A DNA stretch of 64,000 nt from an uncultured Ardenticatenia bacterium (GTDB lineage Bacteria > Chloroflexota > Anaerolineae > 4572-78 > NAK82). Positions within the stretch are counted from its first letter, which is position 1. Each line of letters opens with the position of its first letter. The notes below the pieces were generated by a model. The model had not been told where the DNA came from. It saw nothing but the letters and a program-made list of their open reading frames with translations, and did no database searches. Made by a program: the position numbers and the translations under genes. The stretch covers positions 268,943-332,942 of the forward strand of contig CAKZLO010000035.1 in assembly GCA_937127125.1 (NCBI GenBank), in the 5' to 3' direction. Positions 39,837 to 50,013 of this stretch are shown in pieces.

Positions 39837-42035
39837 TTACGGTCCCCAGTCGATGCGTTCTTCGGTCCAACCGCGCGAGTTTTGGATGTCGATCGCCACC
39901 ACGCCATCTACTGAGCCCTCCAGTTCAAAGAGCGGACGCTGATCATCGCCATCCGCGTCCATCACCCACATTTCCCAGATGCCATCCCGGTTGGAGACGA
40001 ACGCTACCATCTTGCCATCAGGCGACCAGACCGGCAGACCGTCATCTGCCTCATCAGTGGTCAGCTGTATCAGATTCTCTCCATCGATGTCCACGCGGTA
40101 GATGTCCCAGTTTCCCTTGCGACGTGACATAAAAACCACCTTTTGTCCGTCTGGCGAGACATCAGGGTTGGTATCGCCTGGATCTTGGGTAATCTGCTTG
40201 GGAAAGCTTCCATCCAGATTGCTTATGATCAGCCCACACGCAGATCCCAGACATCCCTGATAGACAAAGCGGTTGCCATCCACCCAATCTGGAGATTGTC
40301 CCTGGATCGGTGCACCCTCGCGACGCAACACCTCGTACTGTGCACCGACAGTACGATAGACCGCAGCCGGTTCGCCTGCCTCACGGGAATGGAACAGAAA
40401 CATCTGACCATCTGGAGCAAACACAGGCCGTGCTGCTTCGAAGTGCGAATTGAAACGCCATTCGGGGCCACCGGCAACAGCGCGCTCGATTAATCCTCGA
40501 TTGTCGTGTCTCCAGGAACGAAAGACGATGCGCTGACCGTCGAAGTTTACGTCGGGTTGGCTGGCATATTCGGCGATCAACTCGCGCCCTTGCCCATCCG
40601 GCTTCGCAGCATATATATGATATGTCTGCACCTTGGCATCGAAGACAGGGAAGAAAAAGCGCCCTTGCAAGGGTATCGGGTTGCGCACCTGCGGCAGGTC
40701 ACGTGATGTATACTCTGGCAGCTGGGGCGGCGTCGGAGAATTTGCAGGTGTCACCACGACAGCTGTGGCGCTGGGCGTAGGTGCTTGCGCGACAGATTCT
40801 GTAGTGGACACCTCCGGTGTGGGCAAGGGCGTTGCAGATCCACTTACCACAGTTGCAGGTGGCGCGCCCGCGCGAGTCGCCGCAGGCGTTGGGATCATGG
40901 CGATTGACTCACCGCGAGGAATCCACAGCTTGATGTTGTCAAAACTGACCACCAAATTGGGCTCTGAGAACGTGTTAGCAAAGAAACCGAAGTTGCCGTG
41001 CGACAATGAATCGTCCGTGACCTGTCCCAGCTCAACATCGTTAGCGAACACTCGGATGCGTGTGCCGAGCGCTTCCACCATCAATTTGTTAGTTGCCTGG
41101 CCGACATTCAGTGCAGGAGAGGGTGTCCAGGGAATCAGAGTGGTCCACTCGCCACGGTAAAATTTGCTGAGCAGAAAGTAACCCTCGCCAGAGACGTCGA
41201 AGCGGTAGTAATTGTCGCGGTCTTGAAAGCGGAACAATATGCCATAGCCATTGTTGTTCGGCCCAGACTCTTGGGTAGCTTCCACTTCAAGCCGGAAGTT
41301 TGCCACATCGCGGTTGGCCAATCCCCATGCGACCAGATTACTGGTCATTACCTCGATATAGTACTTGTTATTCCCATACTGTTTGATCGTGTAGCGGTCG
41401 AATGCGTCGTCCCACCCACTACTGTGATCGCTAAAATCATCCTGATAAGCCAACACAAAATCACCTGATACGAGATCCACCGAAACAGGGGCTAATTCGG
41501 GGATCAGCTCTGCCTGCTGCTGGTTTCGCGTAGCGATAAAGATCACAAATAACAACAGGGCCACGCTGATCAGGCCGCCTAGCGCGATCCAGAGCCAATT
41601 CCAGCCTGGCAGGCCAGCTCTTGGATGCGGGCGTGCTGGGACAGCCTCCGGAGGACGCAGCATGGTAGCAGGCTCAACCTGTCCGCCCACGCCCACCCGA
41701 GAGGGCTGGAAAACCATTTCTGTATCCCCTATTTGGATATGGTCGTCAGGATGGAGCACCTTCCCAGCGCTAATGCGCTTTCCATTGACAAAGGTGCCGT
41801 TGGCGCTGTTCTGATCGCGGATAACCCATCTGCCATTGTCCAGCTCAATAACAGCATGATATCTGGACACGCGCGGATCGGTAAGCACCAGCTCGTTGTC
41901 GCGTTCTCGTCCCACGCGTGTCTTGAGCTTCAGCCGGATGATGCGCCCCTGCTCATTTCCGCGCACAATTTCCAACAGTGGGGTCGCGGGAGGTCCCGCG
42001 ACGGTAGATTCCTGATCTCGGATAACCTCGCTCAA
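39837..42035 (-). CDS. FHA domain protein with TM, laminin-G/LamG-like (DUF1080-type) and PD40 beta-propeller domains
   Basis: RVGRERDNELVLTDPRVSRYHAVIELDNGRWVIRDQNSANGTFVNGKRI (FHA); SPDGQKVVFMSRRKGNWDIYRVD (PD40). Confidence 0.9.
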   Translation of the reverse strand: MSEVIRDQESTVAGPPATPLLEIVRGNEQGRIIRLKLKTRVGRERDNELVLTDPRVSRYHAVIELDNGRWVIRDQNSANGTFVNGKRISAGKVLHPDDHIQIGDTEMVFQPSRVGVGGQVEPATMLRPPEAVPARPHPRAGLPGWNWLWIALGGLISVALLLFVIFIATRNQQQAELIPELAPVSVDLVSGDFVLAYQDDFSDHSSGWDDAFDRYTIKQYGNNKYYIEVMTSNLVAWGLANRDVANFRLEVEATQESGPNNNGYGILFRFQDRDNYYRFDVSGEGYFLLSKFYRGEWTTLIPWTPSPALNVGQATNKLMVEALGTRIRVFANDVELGQVTDDSLSHGNFGFFANTFSEPNLVVSFDNIKLWIPRGESIAMIPTPAATRAGAPPATVVSGSATPLPTPEVSTTESVAQAPTPSATAVVVTPANSPTPPQLPEYTSRDLPQVRNPIPLQGRFFFPVFDAKVQTYHIYAAKPDGQGRELIAEYASQPDVNFDGQRIVFRSWRHDNRGLIERAVAGGPEWRFNSHFEAARPVFAPDGQMFLFHSREAGEPAAVYRTVGAQYEVLRREGAPIQGQSPDWVDGNRFVYQGCLGSACGLIISNLDGSFPKQITQDPGDTNPDVSPDGQKVVFMSRRKGNWDIYRVDIDGENLIQLTTDEADDGLPVWSPDGKMVAFVSNRDGIWEMWVMDADGDDQRPLFELEGSVDGVVAIDIQNSRGWTEERIDWGP

Positions 42036-42038
42036 GGT

Positions 42039-44906
42039 TTATGGCCCCCAAGAGATGCGTTCGGTCGTCCAGTCGCGTGCGCCAGTACCCCACCCGGGAA
42101 TGTTGATCGGGAGCTGGACTGCCTCTCCACCGTTGCTGGGCACTACCCACACACTCCATTGACCGCTGCGCGTTGAGACAAACGCGACCCAGCGACCATC
42201 CGGCGACAGAGTGCCCAGTCCATCCTCTGCAGGGTGGTTGCTCAGATTAACAACAGGACCACCAGTAATACTTGTCACATACACTTCCCAGTTGCCTTCC
42301 TTAAGGCTCATAAAGATGAGACGATCGCCCTTGGTGTCCGTCGGGATGTCGTCATTGCTGGTCAGCTTGGCAGGAACGCTGTAGCCGGTGGCGCCAGCGG
42401 TTGCCCAGCTGGGTGTACGCCAGATGCCGCATGTGCTGCCACCGCTGCCCCCAAGCCAGATGTCGCAGGCGCGGAAGATAATATAGTCGTCCGCTGCCCA
42501 AAGTGGAAAAAGTGGTTGATCGCGGAACACATCCCCTGCTATGATCATCTTGCCGGCCACTATCGATGTGTCAGGCTTCGCCAAACCGTTCTGGACGAAG
42601 ATGTGCCATTCGGGGCAATCACGCTTGGCGCACACCATCTCGGGATTGTCATACACAATCCCATTTCCATCAAACTTCCAGAAGGGGTGATGGTCATTCG
42701 GCGATGCGGAGATCTCGATTCCTCCGCTGCCGTCAACATTGTATCCCCATACATTTTCATTTCCACCTGCCTCACCGTTCACAGCGAGGAAGCCATCTGC
42801 ACGAAAGTTGGGTTGCCGCGCGCGCGGGATCTTGCCCACCACCTCAGCCTGTGGCAGCTGGTAGATGAGCACATCGTAATGACCCGCGCCGTCGTCAATG
42901 GGGATTGCCAATTTGCCAGACAGGGCAGGAGCTTGCGGCAGAACTGGCTGTGCTGTCTCCACGGCCGGCGGCTGCGGAGGCACAGGGCTTTCCGGCGTGG
43001 CCTCTTCCGCTACCCCACCCGATTCGATCGGCGGAGCAACAGTGTTGGTAGGCAGCGGTGTAGGGGATGGGAAAGGCGTGTAAGTCGGCAACGGGGTATA
43101 GGTCGGCAGCGGCGTGTAGGTGGGCAAGGGTGTGTAGGTCGGCAACGGTGTCGGCGTGGCGGTCGGCAGCGGTGTATACGTCGGCAGCGGCGTAGGTGTG
43201 TGGGTTACTGTCGGCGTAGCAGTCGGTACCGGAGTGAATGTATTCGTTGCCACCCGCGTGGCTGTATTGGTCGCACTCGGCGTTGCCGTTGGACGCGGTG
43301 TATAAGTCGGTGTGGGCGTAGAAGTGTTTGTCACAGCTGGCATTAACGCGCTCGCCACGGCAGCCACAATTTGCAGCGTATCCGTTGCCTTGGGCGTGTG
43401 TGTTGTTGGCGAGGTCGGCGAGTGAACTAGCGTAGCACTCGCCATCAGCACTACTACGTCCATTTCTGTTGCTGCGCTGCCTGGCGTAGTAGGCGTCGTT
43501 GTCAACATAGGAGGAGAGAGCTCGGTGGCAGGAGCTGTTGCCACTTCTGCTGTAGCCTGAGCTGATATCGGGGTGTCGCTCGGGCGCGCAGTGGCCGATC
43601 CTAGCGGAGTGGCTGTGGCGGTGGGCGTTGCCGATGCTACCGCAGAAGTGGCACTAGTGGTGGATGGTACGCCTGTATCTGCGATCATTTCAGTCACTGG
43701 CAGCAATGTTTCCACCTGTGTGACTGTCACCCCTTGCTCGGGAGACGGTACCATTGGAGTGAAAGCGACCAACGCAGCAGGAACAGCCGCTGTCGGCGGC
43801 ACAAGGACCGAGTTGCGCAACACATAAGGTATCAACAGTGCGAGGGCAGCGATGCAGACCAATGCCACCAGGCCACCCACAATGGCCAATAGCAAGACCG
43901 GGATCTTCTGTTTCGGCGTTGTCAATGTGGTCGCGGCAGGCTGTTCCGCCGTAGACGGTACAGCGGCAACAGGTCTCTCAGGCATCCTGAACGCCTGGGG
44001 AGCAACTTCCCCAACGCGTGGTGGAAGGGCAATGGTGGTGATGGGAGCGATAGCTAACGTGTCGTCGGCGCTCAGTCCCACTGCTTCGCGCAACGCCTGT
44101 GCCATATCACCCGCGCTGGGATAACGGTCGTCTGGGTTCTTGCTGAGCGCTTTGAGGACAACACGCTCAATCTCCTCTGGCAGTTTGGGGTTCAACGTGC
44201 GCGGGAGCGGCAACGGGTCGTGAATGTGTTTCATAATGATAGCCAGGGGGGTGTCAGCATCAAACGGCACCCTGCCAGTTACCATCTCATAAAGGATCAC
44301 ACCCAACGAATAGATGTCGCTGCGCTCGTCGCCATGCTGACCCTGACATTGCTCCGGTGACATATAAGCTGGAGTGCCCGAAATAGCACCAGTCATAGTA
44401 AGGCCACTAGCCCCTATGATGCGCGCAATGCCAAAATCGGTAAGCACTATTTGCCCTTCTTTAGTGAACATAATGTTAGCGGGTTTGAGGTCGCGGTGTA
44501 CCATACCCCGCGAATGGGCATAGTCTATTGCACTCGCCAGTGCGCAGAAGATGCGCGTCGTCTCGGCCAGACTGAAGGGCTGCCCGCGGATGCTTCGTTC
44601 TTTCAATTCGGCTTTGAGCGTGGGACCCTCGATGAATTCCATCACCATGTAGTACAGGTCTCCCACGATGTCGAAATCGTAGACCTGCACAATGTTGGGG
44701 TGGCGCAGGTTAGCTATGGCCGCCGCCTCACGCTTGAACCGTCCAACGAAATCTCCCTCTTCGGCCAGATGGCCATGCAATACTTTGATGGCGACATAGC
44801 GGTCAAGACCGGCCTGATAGGCCTTGTACACCTCTGCCATGCCACCGCGCCCGAGTCTTGCCACGATGCGGTATTTGCCCAAGGTCCTGCCGATCAGGTC
44901 ATCCAT
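42039..44906 (-). CDS. Serine/threonine protein kinase with TM, TP-rich linker and extracytoplasmic PD40 beta-propeller
   Basis: LGKYRIVARLGRGGMAEVYKAYQ, VHRDLKPANIMF, LTDFGIARI, GTPAYMSPEQ; start ATG 44906. Confidence 0.95.
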   Translation of the reverse strand: MDDLIGRTLGKYRIVARLGRGGMAEVYKAYQAGLDRYVAIKVLHGHLAEEGDFVGRFKREAAAIANLRHPNIVQVYDFDIVGDLYYMVMEFIEGPTLKAELKERSIRGQPFSLAETTRIFCALASAIDYAHSRGMVHRDLKPANIMFTKEGQIVLTDFGIARIIGASGLTMTGAISGTPAYMSPEQCQGQHGDERSDIYSLGVILYEMVTGRVPFDADTPLAIIMKHIHDPLPLPRTLNPKLPEEIERVVLKALSKNPDDRYPSAGDMAQALREAVGLSADDTLAIAPITTIALPPRVGEVAPQAFRMPERPVAAVPSTAEQPAATTLTTPKQKIPVLLLAIVGGLVALVCIAALALLIPYVLRNSVLVPPTAAVPAALVAFTPMVPSPEQGVTVTQVETLLPVTEMIADTGVPSTTSATSAVASATPTATATPLGSATARPSDTPISAQATAEVATAPATELSPPMLTTTPTTPGSAATEMDVVVLMASATLVHSPTSPTTHTPKATDTLQIVAAVASALMPAVTNTSTPTPTYTPRPTATPSATNTATRVATNTFTPVPTATPTVTHTPTPLPTYTPLPTATPTPLPTYTPLPTYTPLPTYTPLPTYTPFPSPTPLPTNTVAPPIESGGVAEEATPESPVPPQPPAVETAQPVLPQAPALSGKLAIPIDDGAGHYDVLIYQLPQAEVVGKIPRARQPNFRADGFLAVNGEAGGNENVWGYNVDGSGGIEISASPNDHHPFWKFDGNGIVYDNPEMVCAKRDCPEWHIFVQNGLAKPDTSIVAGKMIIAGDVFRDQPLFPLWAADDYIIFRACDIWLGGSGGSTCGIWRTPSWATAGATGYSVPAKLTSNDDIPTDTKGDRLIFMSLKEGNWEVYVTSITGGPVVNLSNHPAEDGLGTLSPDGRWVAFVSTRSGQWSVWVVPSNGGEAVQLPINIPGWGTGARDWTTERISWGP
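43075..43198. repeat. 18-bp minisatellite-like repeat encoding (PTYTPL)n linker of the kinase
   Basis: Consecutive units GGCGTGTAAGTCGGCAAC / GGGGTATAGGTCGGCAGC / GGCGTGTAGGTGGGCAAG / GGTGTGTAGGTCGGCAAC. Confidence 0.8.
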
Positions 44907-44986
44907 AGTGCGCAACCTGCCTTCCACCCGGTGGGGAGGGGGAAAAACTGTTCGTGAGCGGATTATATACCCCTGATAAATGGGCG

Positions 44987-46048
44987 TCAACGAGGATTTA
45001 TCAGACGCGGACCATTCGGCGTGTCCTGAACGTGCCACCCCAGAGCAGCTATCCGCGCCCGCAGAGCATCCGCCTCCTGCCAATCCTGTCGTGCACGGGC
45101 CGCCTCGCGTGCTTCTACTAACTTGATCACCTCATCCGGTGGTACCGGAGATGCTGGCACTTGCTGAGCTGCCTCTTCGATGCTCCGCCAGACATACTCG
45201 GGCACTCCGCTACGTAGAGGCGGCAAGCGGAAGTCACCCAGCTCGGCCAAGGGGATAGTATCTGAGCGCGAAAATGTGATGAGCTCTCCAGCACGTATTC
45301 GCGTGACACTGCCGCGCCCCATCACCTGACAGTGGCCGGCGGCGATGTCGAAGATCAGAGCAGTATGTTCATCAATGCCAAGTACAGTGACGTCGCGGGG
45401 CAACAGCTCCAGCAATCTTTCGAAGCGTTCACGCCCCATAAAACAACGACTGGTGTCCAAGGTTGCGCCTCCCTCATGGTTATCCCAGTGTGGGATCAAC
45501 ACCAATGGCAGGCCAAATGCCCCAAACAGATCCAGACCGGGCACCCAATGCAATTCGGTTCCCACTTTGTAGATTTCATAGACAGGCAGCGCGTAGGCAC
45601 CTGCTGCAATTGTTGCCGCGCTTGACAACACAATCGCTCCCCCCAGGCGATGGCGTGCCACCAGCGCGTGCCAGGCCAAGCTATCCCGCAGCTGACGCAC
45701 TGCATATGTGGGACTGCCAGGCCCCAGAAAGATCACATTCGCTGTCAGCAGGGGGGCCACGATCTCAGGCGTGTTAGGGCTGTAGGGCGTGCCACGCTTG
45801 CGTGCCGGCACGACAGTCACCTCCGGTCGATAATTCTGCAGCCGCACACGCAAGAACTGCGCAACCTCCTCGGCCACATAAGCAGAGTTGGGCTGAAAGC
45901 CAGCCGGTGTCTCCAACACGGCCACCCGAATGGGTAGCGTAAGCTGCCTGAACAACCAATCATAAACTTGCCGCCCAGTGCTCGAGATCTCCCCCGAACC
46001 GAGGAACACAATCAAACCTGGTCGCCACGTCATCTCAAGGGGTGCCAA
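44987..46048 (-). CDS. Peptidase S51/cyanophycinase-like protein fused to a cysteinyl-tRNA synthetase C-terminal-like domain
   Basis: FLGPGSPTYAVRQLRDS and GGAIVLSSAATIAAGAYALPVYEIYKVG (S51-like); tail LVEAREAARARQDWQEADALRARIAALGWHVQDTPNGPRL (CysRS C-terminus-like). Confidence 0.75.
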   Translation of the reverse strand: MAPLEMTWRPGLIVFLGSGEISSTGRQVYDWLFRQLTLPIRVAVLETPAGFQPNSAYVAEEVAQFLRVRLQNYRPEVTVVPARKRGTPYSPNTPEIVAPLLTANVIFLGPGSPTYAVRQLRDSLAWHALVARHRLGGAIVLSSAATIAAGAYALPVYEIYKVGTELHWVPGLDLFGAFGLPLVLIPHWDNHEGGATLDTSRCFMGRERFERLLELLPRDVTVLGIDEHTALIFDIAAGHCQVMGRGSVTRIRAGELITFSRSDTIPLAELGDFRLPPLRSGVPEYVWRSIEEAAQQVPASPVPPDEVIKLVEAREAARARQDWQEADALRARIAALGWHVQDTPNGPRLINPR

Positions 46049-46053
46049 GTCTC

Positions 46054-46995
46054 TTACCTCCCGGGAAGCGTAACCGTGAGCTCACGCATTTCGATGAAAC
46101 GACGTACATCTTCTAATGTGGGCAAGGAGGGCTGGGCGCCCAACTGCGTCACAGTTAATGCGCCCACGACGTTGGCAAAACGTGCCGCCGCCACGAGGGC
46201 CATCCTATGAGCTAATGCCACCCCCAGCGCGGCACAAAACGCATCTCCTGCGGCGGTGGTATCCACGATCTCCACCGCTATTCCGTCAATCCGATGCTCC
46301 GATTCGGGAGTGACCACCAGAGCACCCGTGCCTCCCAGCTTGACGATGACCCCCCGGCGTACATGCCGCAATAGCTCATATGCAGCCCGACGCGCACTAT
46401 CCCAGTCTTCCACCACCATCCCTGCCAGAGTGCCAGCTTCAATTCGGTTGGGTGTGATATAGTCAGCCAGTCTCAAGATGGTCTCCGGGCATCGCTGTGC
46501 CGGGGCGGGGTCCAATATGGTAATCACACCCGCCGCCCGCGCAGCAGCCAACGCTGCTTCTACCGCTGTCAAAGGCACCTCCAGCTGGCACAGCAGGACA
46601 TCCGAACGGGCAATAGCGTCTTGAGCACGTCGTACATCATCGGGCGTGACCTCATCGTTAGCACCTCGAGCGACCACGATGGTATTTTCGCCCCGCACCA
46701 GCATGATCACTGCCACGCCTGTGGCTGTGTGTGTCGCTTCTCCCAGGCAGGTCAGATCAATACCCTCTGCTGCAAGTCCGCGACGAATCTGTGCGCCGAA
46801 GGCATCGTCACCCACTCTTCCAACCAGAGAAGTGGACGCCCCCAATCGCGCTGCCGCCACCGCCTGATTAGCTCCTTTGCCACCCTGAGCATACGTGGTA
46901 CGACTACCCAGCAACGTCTCACCCGGAGATGGCAATCGCTCTAGCGTGATAATGAGATCCATGTTGACGCTGCCGACTACTGTAATGTTGACCAT
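46054..46995 (-). CDS. rbsK: Ribokinase (PfkB family)
   Basis: VVGSVNMDLIITLERLPSPGETLLG, GGKGANQAVAAARLG, DTTAAGDAFCAALGVAL. Confidence 0.9.
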   Translation of the reverse strand: MVNITVVGSVNMDLIITLERLPSPGETLLGSRTTYAQGGKGANQAVAAARLGASTSLVGRVGDDAFGAQIRRGLAAEGIDLTCLGEATHTATGVAVIMLVRGENTIVVARGANDEVTPDDVRRAQDAIARSDVLLCQLEVPLTAVEAALAAARAAGVITILDPAPAQRCPETILRLADYITPNRIEAGTLAGMVVEDWDSARRAAYELLRHVRRGVIVKLGGTGALVVTPESEHRIDGIAVEIVDTTAAGDAFCAALGVALAHRMALVAAARFANVVGALTVTQLGAQPSLPTLEDVRRFIEMRELTVTLPGR

Positions 46996-47106
46996 TGTTA
47001 CCTCACTCGATGCTGTTTGTGGCTGGATTATGACGGCCCGGAATGGCCCACGATTCATTCAGACTAGTGCCAGCCTGTGGCATGCCCTGTACTGCCACGA
47101 GCAGGA

Positions 47107-47496
47107 CTAGCTCTCTACGATGACCTGCTCACCGTCAACACACACCCGGTCGCCCGTGCGAATCTGGGTGATGTCAACCTGGTCTACCATCGGGATACCA
47201 CTAATGATGGCTCCAACCGCAACGATAGGGTCACTTTCAGCGTTGATAATGGCAGCAGGTGCGTGGCCTGCTTTGGCAAGCCGGTACAGGCTATAGCTGC
47301 CCACTGTGCTCCCTTTTCCAGTTGGGAACACCAACACCCGGCCGCCGATCTGCTGCCCGGCTAGGGGATGGCTGGCTTCAATCACCCGGCCTGTTTCGGC
47401 ATCTACCATGCCAAAGAAACTGATCGGTTCGGACGAAACCAACGCAATGCCGCTCGCTCTTCCGTGCTTGATCACTCGGCCTGTCAGTCGCTTCAT
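47107..47496 (-). CDS. Aconitase X swivel domain / small subunit (DUF126)
   Basis: GQQIGGRVLVFPTGKGSTVGSYSLYRLAKAGHAPAAIINAESDPIVAVGAIISGIPMVD. Confidence 0.92.
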   Translation of the reverse strand: MKRLTGRVIKHGRASGIALVSSEPISFFGMVDAETGRVIEASHPLAGQQIGGRVLVFPTGKGSTVGSYSLYRLAKAGHAPAAIINAESDPIVAVGAIISGIPMVDQVDITQIRTGDRVCVDGEQVIVES

Positions 47497-48731
47497 ATCC
47501 CGCCAGACCCCAGCCACCGCCCTGTAACAGCTGCTTCTACGCAAGCCTGCGGTGAGTCGAAGTGGACTGCTATGCCGGAGTGGGCTGGTGCATAATAGGC
47601 CCCTTTTGCACACGGAGTGGCCATACAGCGAAAACCCAGTCCCTCCATCGGTGCCACCACCAGGCAGGTATCTGCTACGACGTGTCCCCCCAGAGCCTCG
47701 AAGCGTTGTAACAAGCCACTGCGTGCCGCTTCATCCCGGAGCGAGCGCGCCATGGTGACCCACAACGGTACCTTGCACTTCCGTCCGTCCAGCAGTCGTA
47801 CGACTTCTTCCAGCTCGGCCAATGAGGCATGTGGACAGCCGAACCACACCAGGTCAATCGAGACACCCTCGCTATGATTGAGAGCGTAATAGCCTGGCGC
47901 TAGATCTGTGATCGTTACTTGTTCTGCATTTGGCGCAATTATGTCAGGGTCACTGCTCTCCGGCGTGACCCCCTCGATATGATACAGGGCCACAGCACCG
48001 CTGGCGGCCATCGCAGCACCCAACGTCTTCAGCAAATCAAGCCCCACCGGTTGAGAAAGGCGTGCTGCATCCAGCCCGCGCAAGTAGGGCACACGATTGC
48101 GTACCTGCTTCCCCACCAGGATGCCCAACGCGCCAAAATCGGAAAGAGTACGCACCGGGCAACGCACATCAATGATCAGCTGCGCACGACGGTGGACGTC
48201 CAGATGTAGGCCGTAGCGTGCTGTGCGTCCGACGATAGCGGCTGCCAGCGCGCTCGGTCCCCCTTCGCGGTTGGTGCGCGCTCCCAACACGCTATTGGCA
48301 AAGCTGACAGCGCTTGACTCGGCCCAGGCGACGTGTTCTCCACGTGCCGGCAGGTTGCCCACCAGGTATGGTGTACACGTGCAGCTAGGAGGGATGCCCA
48401 TTGCAGCGAATGTGTCGATGACGCGCTGCTGCTTGGCGGCAAAATCGGCATCGAAGCCCAGCGCGCGCCAGCTCTGCAGATCCAGTCCTGCCGGGTTGAG
48501 CGTAGTCGGCACGCGCACACGGGCGCCCTGTGCGCTCCAATCGCTCAGGAACTCCAGGCCGGCTTCGCCCAAATTTTTATAACTCACTCCGGCAACTTGC
48601 GCACTGCTTATTTCTACAAGGTCGTGAGCGCCATAAATGCGACCCAACGCCACGACGATCTCCATCGCTTTCTGCACTCCACGCCCTTCAGCGCCTTCCA
48701 GCAGAGATTGCTCATACGGGGTCAGCTTCAT
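47493..48731 (-). CDS. Aconitase X catalytic domain / large subunit (DUF521)
   Basis: MKLTPYEQSLLEGAEGRGVQKAMEIVVALG, SCTCTPYLVGNLPARGEHVAWAESSAVSFANSVLGARTNREGGPSALAAAIVG; 4-nt overlap with small subunit. Confidence 0.94.
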   Translation of the reverse strand: MKLTPYEQSLLEGAEGRGVQKAMEIVVALGRIYGAHDLVEISSAQVAGVSYKNLGEAGLEFLSDWSAQGARVRVPTTLNPAGLDLQSWRALGFDADFAAKQQRVIDTFAAMGIPPSCTCTPYLVGNLPARGEHVAWAESSAVSFANSVLGARTNREGGPSALAAAIVGRTARYGLHLDVHRRAQLIIDVRCPVRTLSDFGALGILVGKQVRNRVPYLRGLDAARLSQPVGLDLLKTLGAAMAASGAVALYHIEGVTPESSDPDIIAPNAEQVTITDLAPGYYALNHSEGVSIDLVWFGCPHASLAELEEVVRLLDGRKCKVPLWVTMARSLRDEAARSGLLQRFEALGGHVVADTCLVVAPMEGLGFRCMATPCAKGAYYAPAHSGIAVHFDSPQACVEAAVTGRWLGSGGI

Positions 48732-50013
48732 ATCGCACCTTTTGGAAAGCGGTCCGGTCAGCGCCCCAAGGTATTGTGGCGTCCAGACCCATCTTGGCTG
48801 TACGCGTCTTCTGCCCGGGTTGGTGTGTTGCCGATGGGTCCAGGCTGCTGCCCGGCTGATCATATAACACCACCAGATCGCGATCCGCTTGGAAACGTGT
48901 GGCAATGGCCCATTCTACCTGGTTCATATCGAAGGGGTCGATATCAGTATCCACCACCACCACATGCTTGAGCGAACCATGTCCCTCGAACGCAGCATAG
49001 ATCGCTTTCCGACCATCCTCGGGGGATCGCTTGTCAATCTGCACTACAGCATGTAACCAGCTGGTACCACCTGGTGTAATGACCGCGTTGGTGCACCGGC
49101 ACACCCGATTCACGGCTGCCAGTATGGTGGGCTCTTTAGGGATGCCCATCAGATGTTTATGTTCCAGACCGCCCGGCAGCAGCGCGTGGAAAATAGGATC
49201 ACGCCGGCGAGTAATACAATCAATCTCCACCACTGGCCCAGGCCGCACAAAGTCTATGGTCTCGGTCAGATCTACAAACGGGCCTTCCGGCGCGAGGGCA
49301 TGGGTCAAACGTCCCTCCAATACGACCTCACAATCGGCAGGCACATAGAGCGGAACAGTTTTGCATGCCACCACGGGTGTGTCCGCTAATGCATTCGCCA
49401 CCTCCAGTTCGCTGATCCCAACCGGAGCGGACATGGCGGCCGCCAATAAGGTAGACAACGCATTCCCGATGCAGATGGCCACTGGAACATCCTCTCGCGC
49501 TTTCCGCCAGGCCATATCTGTGCCGCGACCCTCCACGACACGCGTGGCAAAGCGGCGATCATCCAGCTGCATCAGGCGGTGGAACGCTACATTGGTGCCG
49601 TGATCAGGATCGTTCAGGATGAGAATGCCAGACGTAATGTAGCGACCACCGTCAAAAGAAAAATGGCGTAGAATCGGCAGACGCCCCAAGTCCACATCCT
49701 GCTCGACCACCTCCTGACAAGGAGCACTTTCCACGATGGAACAGGGCCTAGGATGTGCCAGGGCCTGCGCCAGGACGTGCACCAGCTGATCGACGGGAAC
49801 GCCCAGAGCATCCGCAAAGTAGCGACGCGCCGAGGCGATGCCCGCTATCACCCGCCATCCAGGATATCCCTTTACAGCAGTGAAGAGCACTGGTCGCCCA
49901 TCGTCCTCATGGATAATGCGCGCCATCTCCAGATGGGGACTGACCGGAGTGCCCACCTCGAGCAGGTAACCACGGCTGCGCGCATGCTCTATGAATCTTC
50001 GCAATTCCATCAC
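48712..50013 (-). CDS. UbiD family decarboxylase
   Basis: LRHFSFDGGRYITSGILILNDPDHGTNVAFHRLMQLD, PVAICIGNALSTLLAAAMSAP, AEIVLEG-like segment, LPGGLEHKHLMGIPKEP; 20-nt overlap with AcnX large subunit. Confidence 0.93.
   Translation of the reverse strand: MMELRRFIEHARSRGYLLEVGTPVSPHLEMARIIHEDDGRPVLFTAVKGYPGWRVIAGIASARRYFADALGVPVDQLVHVLAQALAHPRPCSIVESAPCQEVVEQDVDLGRLPILRHFSFDGGRYITSGILILNDPDHGTNVAFHRLMQLDDRRFATRVVEGRGTDMAWRKAREDVPVAICIGNALSTLLAAAMSAPVGISELEVANALADTPVVACKTVPLYVPADCEVVLEGRLTHALAPEGPFVDLTETIDFVRPGPVVEIDCITRRRDPIFHALLPGGLEHKHLMGIPKEPTILAAVNRVCRCTNAVITPGGTSWLHAVVQIDKRSPEDGRKAIYAAFEGHGSLKHVVVVDTDIDPFDMNQVEWAIATRFQADRDLVVLYDQPGSSLDPSATHQPGQKTRTAKMGLDATIPWGADRTAFQKVRYEADPV

Follow-up and report, generated by a model that had tools for sequence, protein, structure and literature searches.

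The window, i.e. the whole stretch of 64,000 nucleotides analysed here, carries on its minus strand a tight block of three genes (UbiD-AcnXL-AcnXS) that very probably (about 0.93 in our estimate) codes, in a bacterium of the phylum Chloroflexota, for the two reactions that distinguish the archaeal mevalonate pathway. In the proposed scheme, a heterodimeric [4Fe-4S] enzyme made of AcnX-L and AcnX-S would remove water from (R)-mevalonate 5-phosphate (MVA5P) to give trans-anhydromevalonate 5-phosphate, which a prFMN-dependent UbiD would decarboxylate to isopentenyl phosphate. The enzymes expected to act before these two steps (thiolase, archaeal-type HMG-CoA synthase, HMG-CoA reductase and mevalonate kinase) and after them (isopentenyl phosphate kinase, then type-2 IPP isomerase), as well as the UbiX that would make prFMN, are encoded elsewhere in the genome. 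This reading is based on gene presence, residues, phylogeny and synteny, all established by sequence, from which we infer substrate, cluster type and flux.

The UbiD gene (48712..50013, minus strand like the four others; Pfam UbiD_N, UbiD and UbiD_C; TIGR00148, 375 bits) encodes a probable anhydromevalonate phosphate decarboxylase (AMPD). It is followed by genes for the large subunit of a probable phosphomevalonate dehydratase (PMDh) of type IIb (47493..48731; Pfam AcnX, 486 bits) and for its probable small subunit, a swivel domain (47107..47496; Pfam AcnX_swivel, 117 bits; NF003046, 169 bits for a cut-off of 163), then by those of a ribokinase-family PfkB kinase (46054..46995; Pfam PfkB, 227 bits; TIGR02152, 338 bits, above cut-off) and of an S51/cyanophycinase-like protein (44987..46048). 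All five open reading frames are present where the earlier note had placed them, and the start and stop positions give exactly the overlaps that it had claimed: UbiD ends at 48712 and AcnX-L starts (MKLTPYEQ) at 48731, an overlap of 20 nt, while AcnX-L ends at 47493 and AcnX-S starts (MKRLTG) at 47496, an overlap of 4 nt (ATGA). Its description of five tightly packed genes holds for UbiD-AcnXL-AcnXS but not between AcnX-S and the ribokinase gene, since about 111 nt separate the AcnX-S stop (47107) from the likely ribokinase start (ATG at 46995). Because of this gap and of the Shine-Dalgarno-like GAGG that precedes this start, the five genes are a tight three-gene block and a separate kinase/S51-like pair. 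The Pfam scores given above bear out the assignment of both subunits to the AcnX family, but the S51 call is only partly sustained: the cyanophycinase (S51) match is weak (25 bits, below cut-off), and the only clear domain is a C-terminal CysS_C (36 bits). Chance is no issue for the gene assignments because E-values range from 1e-34 to 1e-146 and synteny is conserved in relatives. It should also be mentioned that the pairing of an S51/cyanophycinase-like region with a cysteinyl-tRNA-synthetase anticodon-binding domain (CysS_C) at 44987-46048 is odd, and that the region directly downstream of the operon (39837-45083) encodes an FHA-like protein and a Ser/Thr protein kinase which, from their translations read by eye, both end in TolB-like repeats.

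The host genome is a draft of 3.73 Mb in 85 contigs that is 95% complete. The genes sought following the earlier note, namely those of isopentenyl phosphate kinase (IPK; NF040647), HMG-CoA synthase (HMGS; TIGR00748, 520 bits), HMG-CoA reductase (HMGR; TIGR00532) and mevalonate kinase (MVK; TIGR00549), were all found above curated cut-offs, as were those of thiolase (NF004720) and type-2 IPP isomerase (IDI-2; TIGR02151). The genes of HMGR, archaeal-type HMGS and thiolase form one cluster located on the window's own contig, and that of IDI-2 adjoins a polyprenyl synthase gene. With PMDh and AMPD, the archaeal mevalonate gene set (HMGS, HMGR, MVK, PMDh, AMPD, IPK and IDI) is complete. In this 95% complete draft, no DXR was found (the only gene of the DXP pathway that was searched), and neither was any mevalonate-phosphate or diphosphomevalonate decarboxylase (PMD/DMD) using PF18376 and the PMD protein of a relative as queries. 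PF18376 (MDD_C) alone was rejected as a test for PMD because it is a weak detector: its matches extend over a fraction of the profile, and the diverged decarboxylases of one family of relatives (f3) almost escape it. The relative's protein was therefore searched as well. The genome thus differs from one having a complete DXP pathway and no IPK or mevalonate enzymes, a finding that the earlier note would have held against an archaeal-type branch. With no DXR and no mevalonate-phosphate decarboxylase detected, the cell probably depends on the archaeal branch alone for its IPP and DMAPP.

We consider it very unlikely that this branch only duplicates, as an accessory or a vestige, an undetected PMD or DXP pathway that supplies the cell's isoprenoids. 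Such coexistence does occur: three relatives of a second Chloroflexota clade (G063, G184 and G212) carry PMD together with AcnX/UbiD, showing that a cell with this branch can have another one as well, and the host genome is not closed, so that the absence of PMD and DXR could be a gap. However, no signal of either was seen in a genome that is 95% complete, and relatives of the class are also devoid of a strong DXR, their matches having E-values no better than 4.5e-7 compared to about 1e-10 to 1e-43 in genomes taken as having a real DXR. Furthermore, among the 300 genomes of the phylum that were sampled, HMGR is present in 46 of the same class, and outside family f3 all four of these that lack a PMD hit have a PMDh-type AcnX. 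Most genomes of the class carry PMD instead of the PMDh type. The PMDh-type AcnX was found in four of the eight HMGR-bearing genomes without a PF18376 hit compared to three of the 38 with one (Fisher p = 0.012, uncorrected for relatedness), which is suggestive of a swap between PMD and PMDh modules across the class. The four other genomes without a hit all belong to family f3, whose relatives G031, G233 and G292 have a diverged decarboxylase that PF18376 barely detects. Where seen, the only mevalonate-phosphate decarboxylase of this HMGR-bearing family is such a homologue, a 389-aa protein (L072:1326-2495) that scores 197 bits with NF040704 and 149 bits with NF040847, both below cut-off.

The assignment of the window AcnX to the phosphomevalonate dehydratase form (type IIb) is strongly supported, its substrate and cluster type being predicted from solved relatives. 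The best of these is the type IIb enzyme of Thermococcus kodakarensis, both for AcnX-L (7cnr, 355 bits compared to 250 for cis-3-hydroxyproline dehydratase, C3LHypD; about 49% identity to the T. kodakarensis large subunit) and for AcnX-S (7cnr_B, 125 bits compared to 61). The MVA5P contacts and cluster ligands of the T. kodakarensis enzyme are listed in PMC8184944 and PMC10040528. Its large-subunit contacts Gly48, Val49, Ser50, Asn53, Asn79, Glu129, Ser130, Lys361 and Tyr365 are identical in the window, as is Ser131, and all MVA5P contacts of structure 7cns (the first eight of these residues and Thr63 of the small subunit) are kept. AcnX-S retains the GKGSTV motif that includes the small-subunit Ser62, Thr63 and Val64, the first two of which are listed among the MVA5P contacts. 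The cluster cysteines Cys110 (site A), Cys283 (site 1) and Cys342 (site B) are also cysteines in the window, and site C is occupied by Val. A tree of 80 AcnX sequences, built by a quick method with SH-aLRT support and no bootstrap, places AcnX-L with archaeal phosphomevalonate dehydratases and away from hydroxyproline dehydratases.

The earlier note had left open that the window AcnX could instead be a cis-3-hydroxyproline dehydratase, an option that we rejected and regard as extremely improbable. The two enzymes have the aconitase X fold in common (structures 7cnp, 7cnq and 7d2r for the hydroxyproline enzyme), and AcnX-L does match the C3LHypD model NF051439, but with 324 bits for a cut-off of 700. 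The tree, the residues and the ranking of solved structures all favour PMDh, cluster ligands, substrate contacts and clade being different: the C3LHypD-specific cysteine of site C is replaced by Val and the hydroxyproline-contacting Ile206 position by Ser (the hydroxyproline dehydratase used in the residue comparison is 7d2r, an S449C/C510V mutant whose two mutated columns are to be ignored). In addition, the conserved partners of the window type are UbiD and often IPK or MVK. Two other AcnX groups with altered cluster or substrate residues were observed in Chloroflexota (18 sequences; L053-L058, L061-L064, L066-L068 and L077-L081). Many of the positions checked are altered in them, including the phosphate-binding stretch 48-53, and Cys283 is altered in most. 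In most members of one of these groups, Asp replaces the catalytic Glu and the site-1 cysteine is missing, and many have no small subunit detectable nearby.

The window UbiD is a probable AMPD. Its Arg146, Glu243 and Asp248 occupy the E(D)-R-E positions, and in the UbiD tree it is nested in a clade of UbiDs that archaea encode next to AcnX, apart from menaquinone-type UbiDs. The host's second UbiD is distinct from it and of the menaquinone type (TIGR03701, 598 bits). UbiX, whose presence had to be verified, is encoded near the latter (TIGR00421, above cut-off). Altogether, the trees of AcnX and UbiD, the residues, the presence of IPK, mevalonate enzymes and UbiX, and the lack of a detected DXR support the archaeal-type mevalonate branch that the earlier note had favoured.

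Gene order in relatives points the same way. UbiD-AcnXL-AcnXS is followed by IPK in seven loci (L083, L086, L091, L094, L108, L059 of G127 and L211 of G522), with MVK just upstream in L086 and L091. UbiX lies within most operons of the second Chloroflexota clade, and archaeal AcnX loci have the same neighbours, even with HMGR-HMGS-thiolase in L111 and L143. In some Chloroflexota, the small subunit is encoded apart from the large one. The order UbiD-AcnXL-AcnXS-rbsK is kept in a genome of the same genus (G569, locus L200; 82-89% identity), but rbsK was found beside AcnX neither in any other relative examined nor in the 80 named loci, and no S51-like gene was found near AcnX in relatives. With no conservation outside the genus, both the ribokinase gene and the S51-like gene are treated as neighbours and not as parts of the pathway. 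A different dehydratase-decarboxylase pathway, in which the PfkB kinase would phosphorylate a substrate other than mevalonate, had also been envisaged and has hardly any likelihood left: the kinase gene is the next one downstream of AcnX-S and keeps this place within the genus, but its product is a clear ribokinase (NCBIfam), it has its own Shine-Dalgarno-like sequence after a 111-nt gap, it is missing near AcnX in 80 of 80 named loci, and every mevalonate-pathway partner is present in the host genome.

The window AcnX-L belongs to a clade of 26 Chloroflexota sequences (SH-aLRT 99) nested within archaeal PMDh, with methanogen-like, Altiarchaeal and DPANN neighbours. Among named relatives, the MAG Anaerolineales bacterium bin12 (L082, CP070811.1) is the closest. 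The UbiD tree gives a matching Chloroflexota clade (95/89) located beside methanogen sequences and nested among archaea. In both trees, the second Chloroflexota group (G184, G063 and G212) branches with Loki- and Thorarchaeota, which points to at least two acquisitions from archaea, each as an AcnX-UbiD pair. Loci of this second type (L050, L051, L052, L212 and L213) have the order UbiD-AcnXL-AcnXS, with UbiX nearby in most; both trees relate L050-L052 to Asgard archaea, and L051 has a divergently adjacent PMD gene, so that both lower branches coexist. Type IIb AcnX-L/S with nearly all PMDh residues were also observed in two MAGs of Planctomycetota and one of KSB1 (L131, L150 and L122), for which contamination during binning is possible.

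In one family of the phylum (f8, about 27 sampled genomes), large and small subunits are encoded, in this order, by a single reading frame of about 590-660 aa. Such genes, for example at L073:9815-11629 (P0001) and in L180-L199, encode proteins that are about 64-82% identical across these genomes. They are usually near a gene of an AMPD-type UbiD about 60% identical to that of the window, with which it groups in the UbiD tree (95/95). The fused AcnX forms a long branch whose placement in the AcnX tree is unsure. In 19 aligned members, the large-subunit PMDh positions checked are invariant, with N53T, S131N and a Glu at site C compared to T. kodakarensis. This fused protein may be a single-chain phosphomevalonate dehydratase. 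Its arrangement is the opposite of that of type I AcnX, whose domain order 4-1-2-3 corresponds to small then large (PMC10040528).

Taken together, these data lead us to favour, with some reserve, a scenario in which the ATP-using PMD and the pair PMDh+AMPD would be modules that can replace each other in Chloroflexota, both linking the same two intermediates. The pair would have been acquired at least twice, from a methanogen-like donor for the window's clade and from an Asgard-like donor for the clade that is mostly linked to UbiX and whose sampled members still have PMD, and one whole family would have evolved a single-chain PMDh with the large-then-small order, unlike type I AcnX.

Candidatus Promineifilum breve belongs to the same phylum as the window host and has the same pathway, and is therefore a precedent for the whole claim; the two key enzymes were reportedly shown to be active for it in 2024. 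The archaeal mevalonate pathway of this bacterium is attributed to Kanno et al. (2024, AEM 90:e0110624) by PMC13001223. In Aeropyrum pernix, the archaeal pathway comprises PMDh and AMPD (Hayakawa 2018), and its PMDh is characterised in PMC10040528. It resembles that of the window in its enzyme families, cluster cysteines, substrate contacts and partners (MVK, IPK, IDI and UbiX), but the window host is bacterial and its genes UbiD-AcnXL-AcnXS overlap one another within a single operon. A haloarchaea-type mevalonate branch (PMD and IPK) is known from some Chloroflexota (Dellas 2013, as cited in PMC13001223). Like that of the window, it starts from MVA5P and ends at isopentenyl phosphate, which is then used by IPK, but it has one ATP-using decarboxylase in place of the AcnX/UbiD pair, and none such was found in the window's genome. 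The archaeal mevalonate route has therefore been known in the phylum since 2024, and gene content indicates that it is widespread among relatives; its breadth in the phylum, the two transfers from archaea and the single-chain enzyme may be new.

Overall, what had been reported for one bacterium would become a widespread trait among Chloroflexota of the Anaerolineae type, encoded in operons and with well-defined genes to test. In ATP-saving isoprenoid engineering, use of the archaeal enzyme is hampered by its oxygen sensitivity (PMC10040528), and the bacterial dehydratases, above all the single-chain form, may provide an enzyme that is easier to handle.
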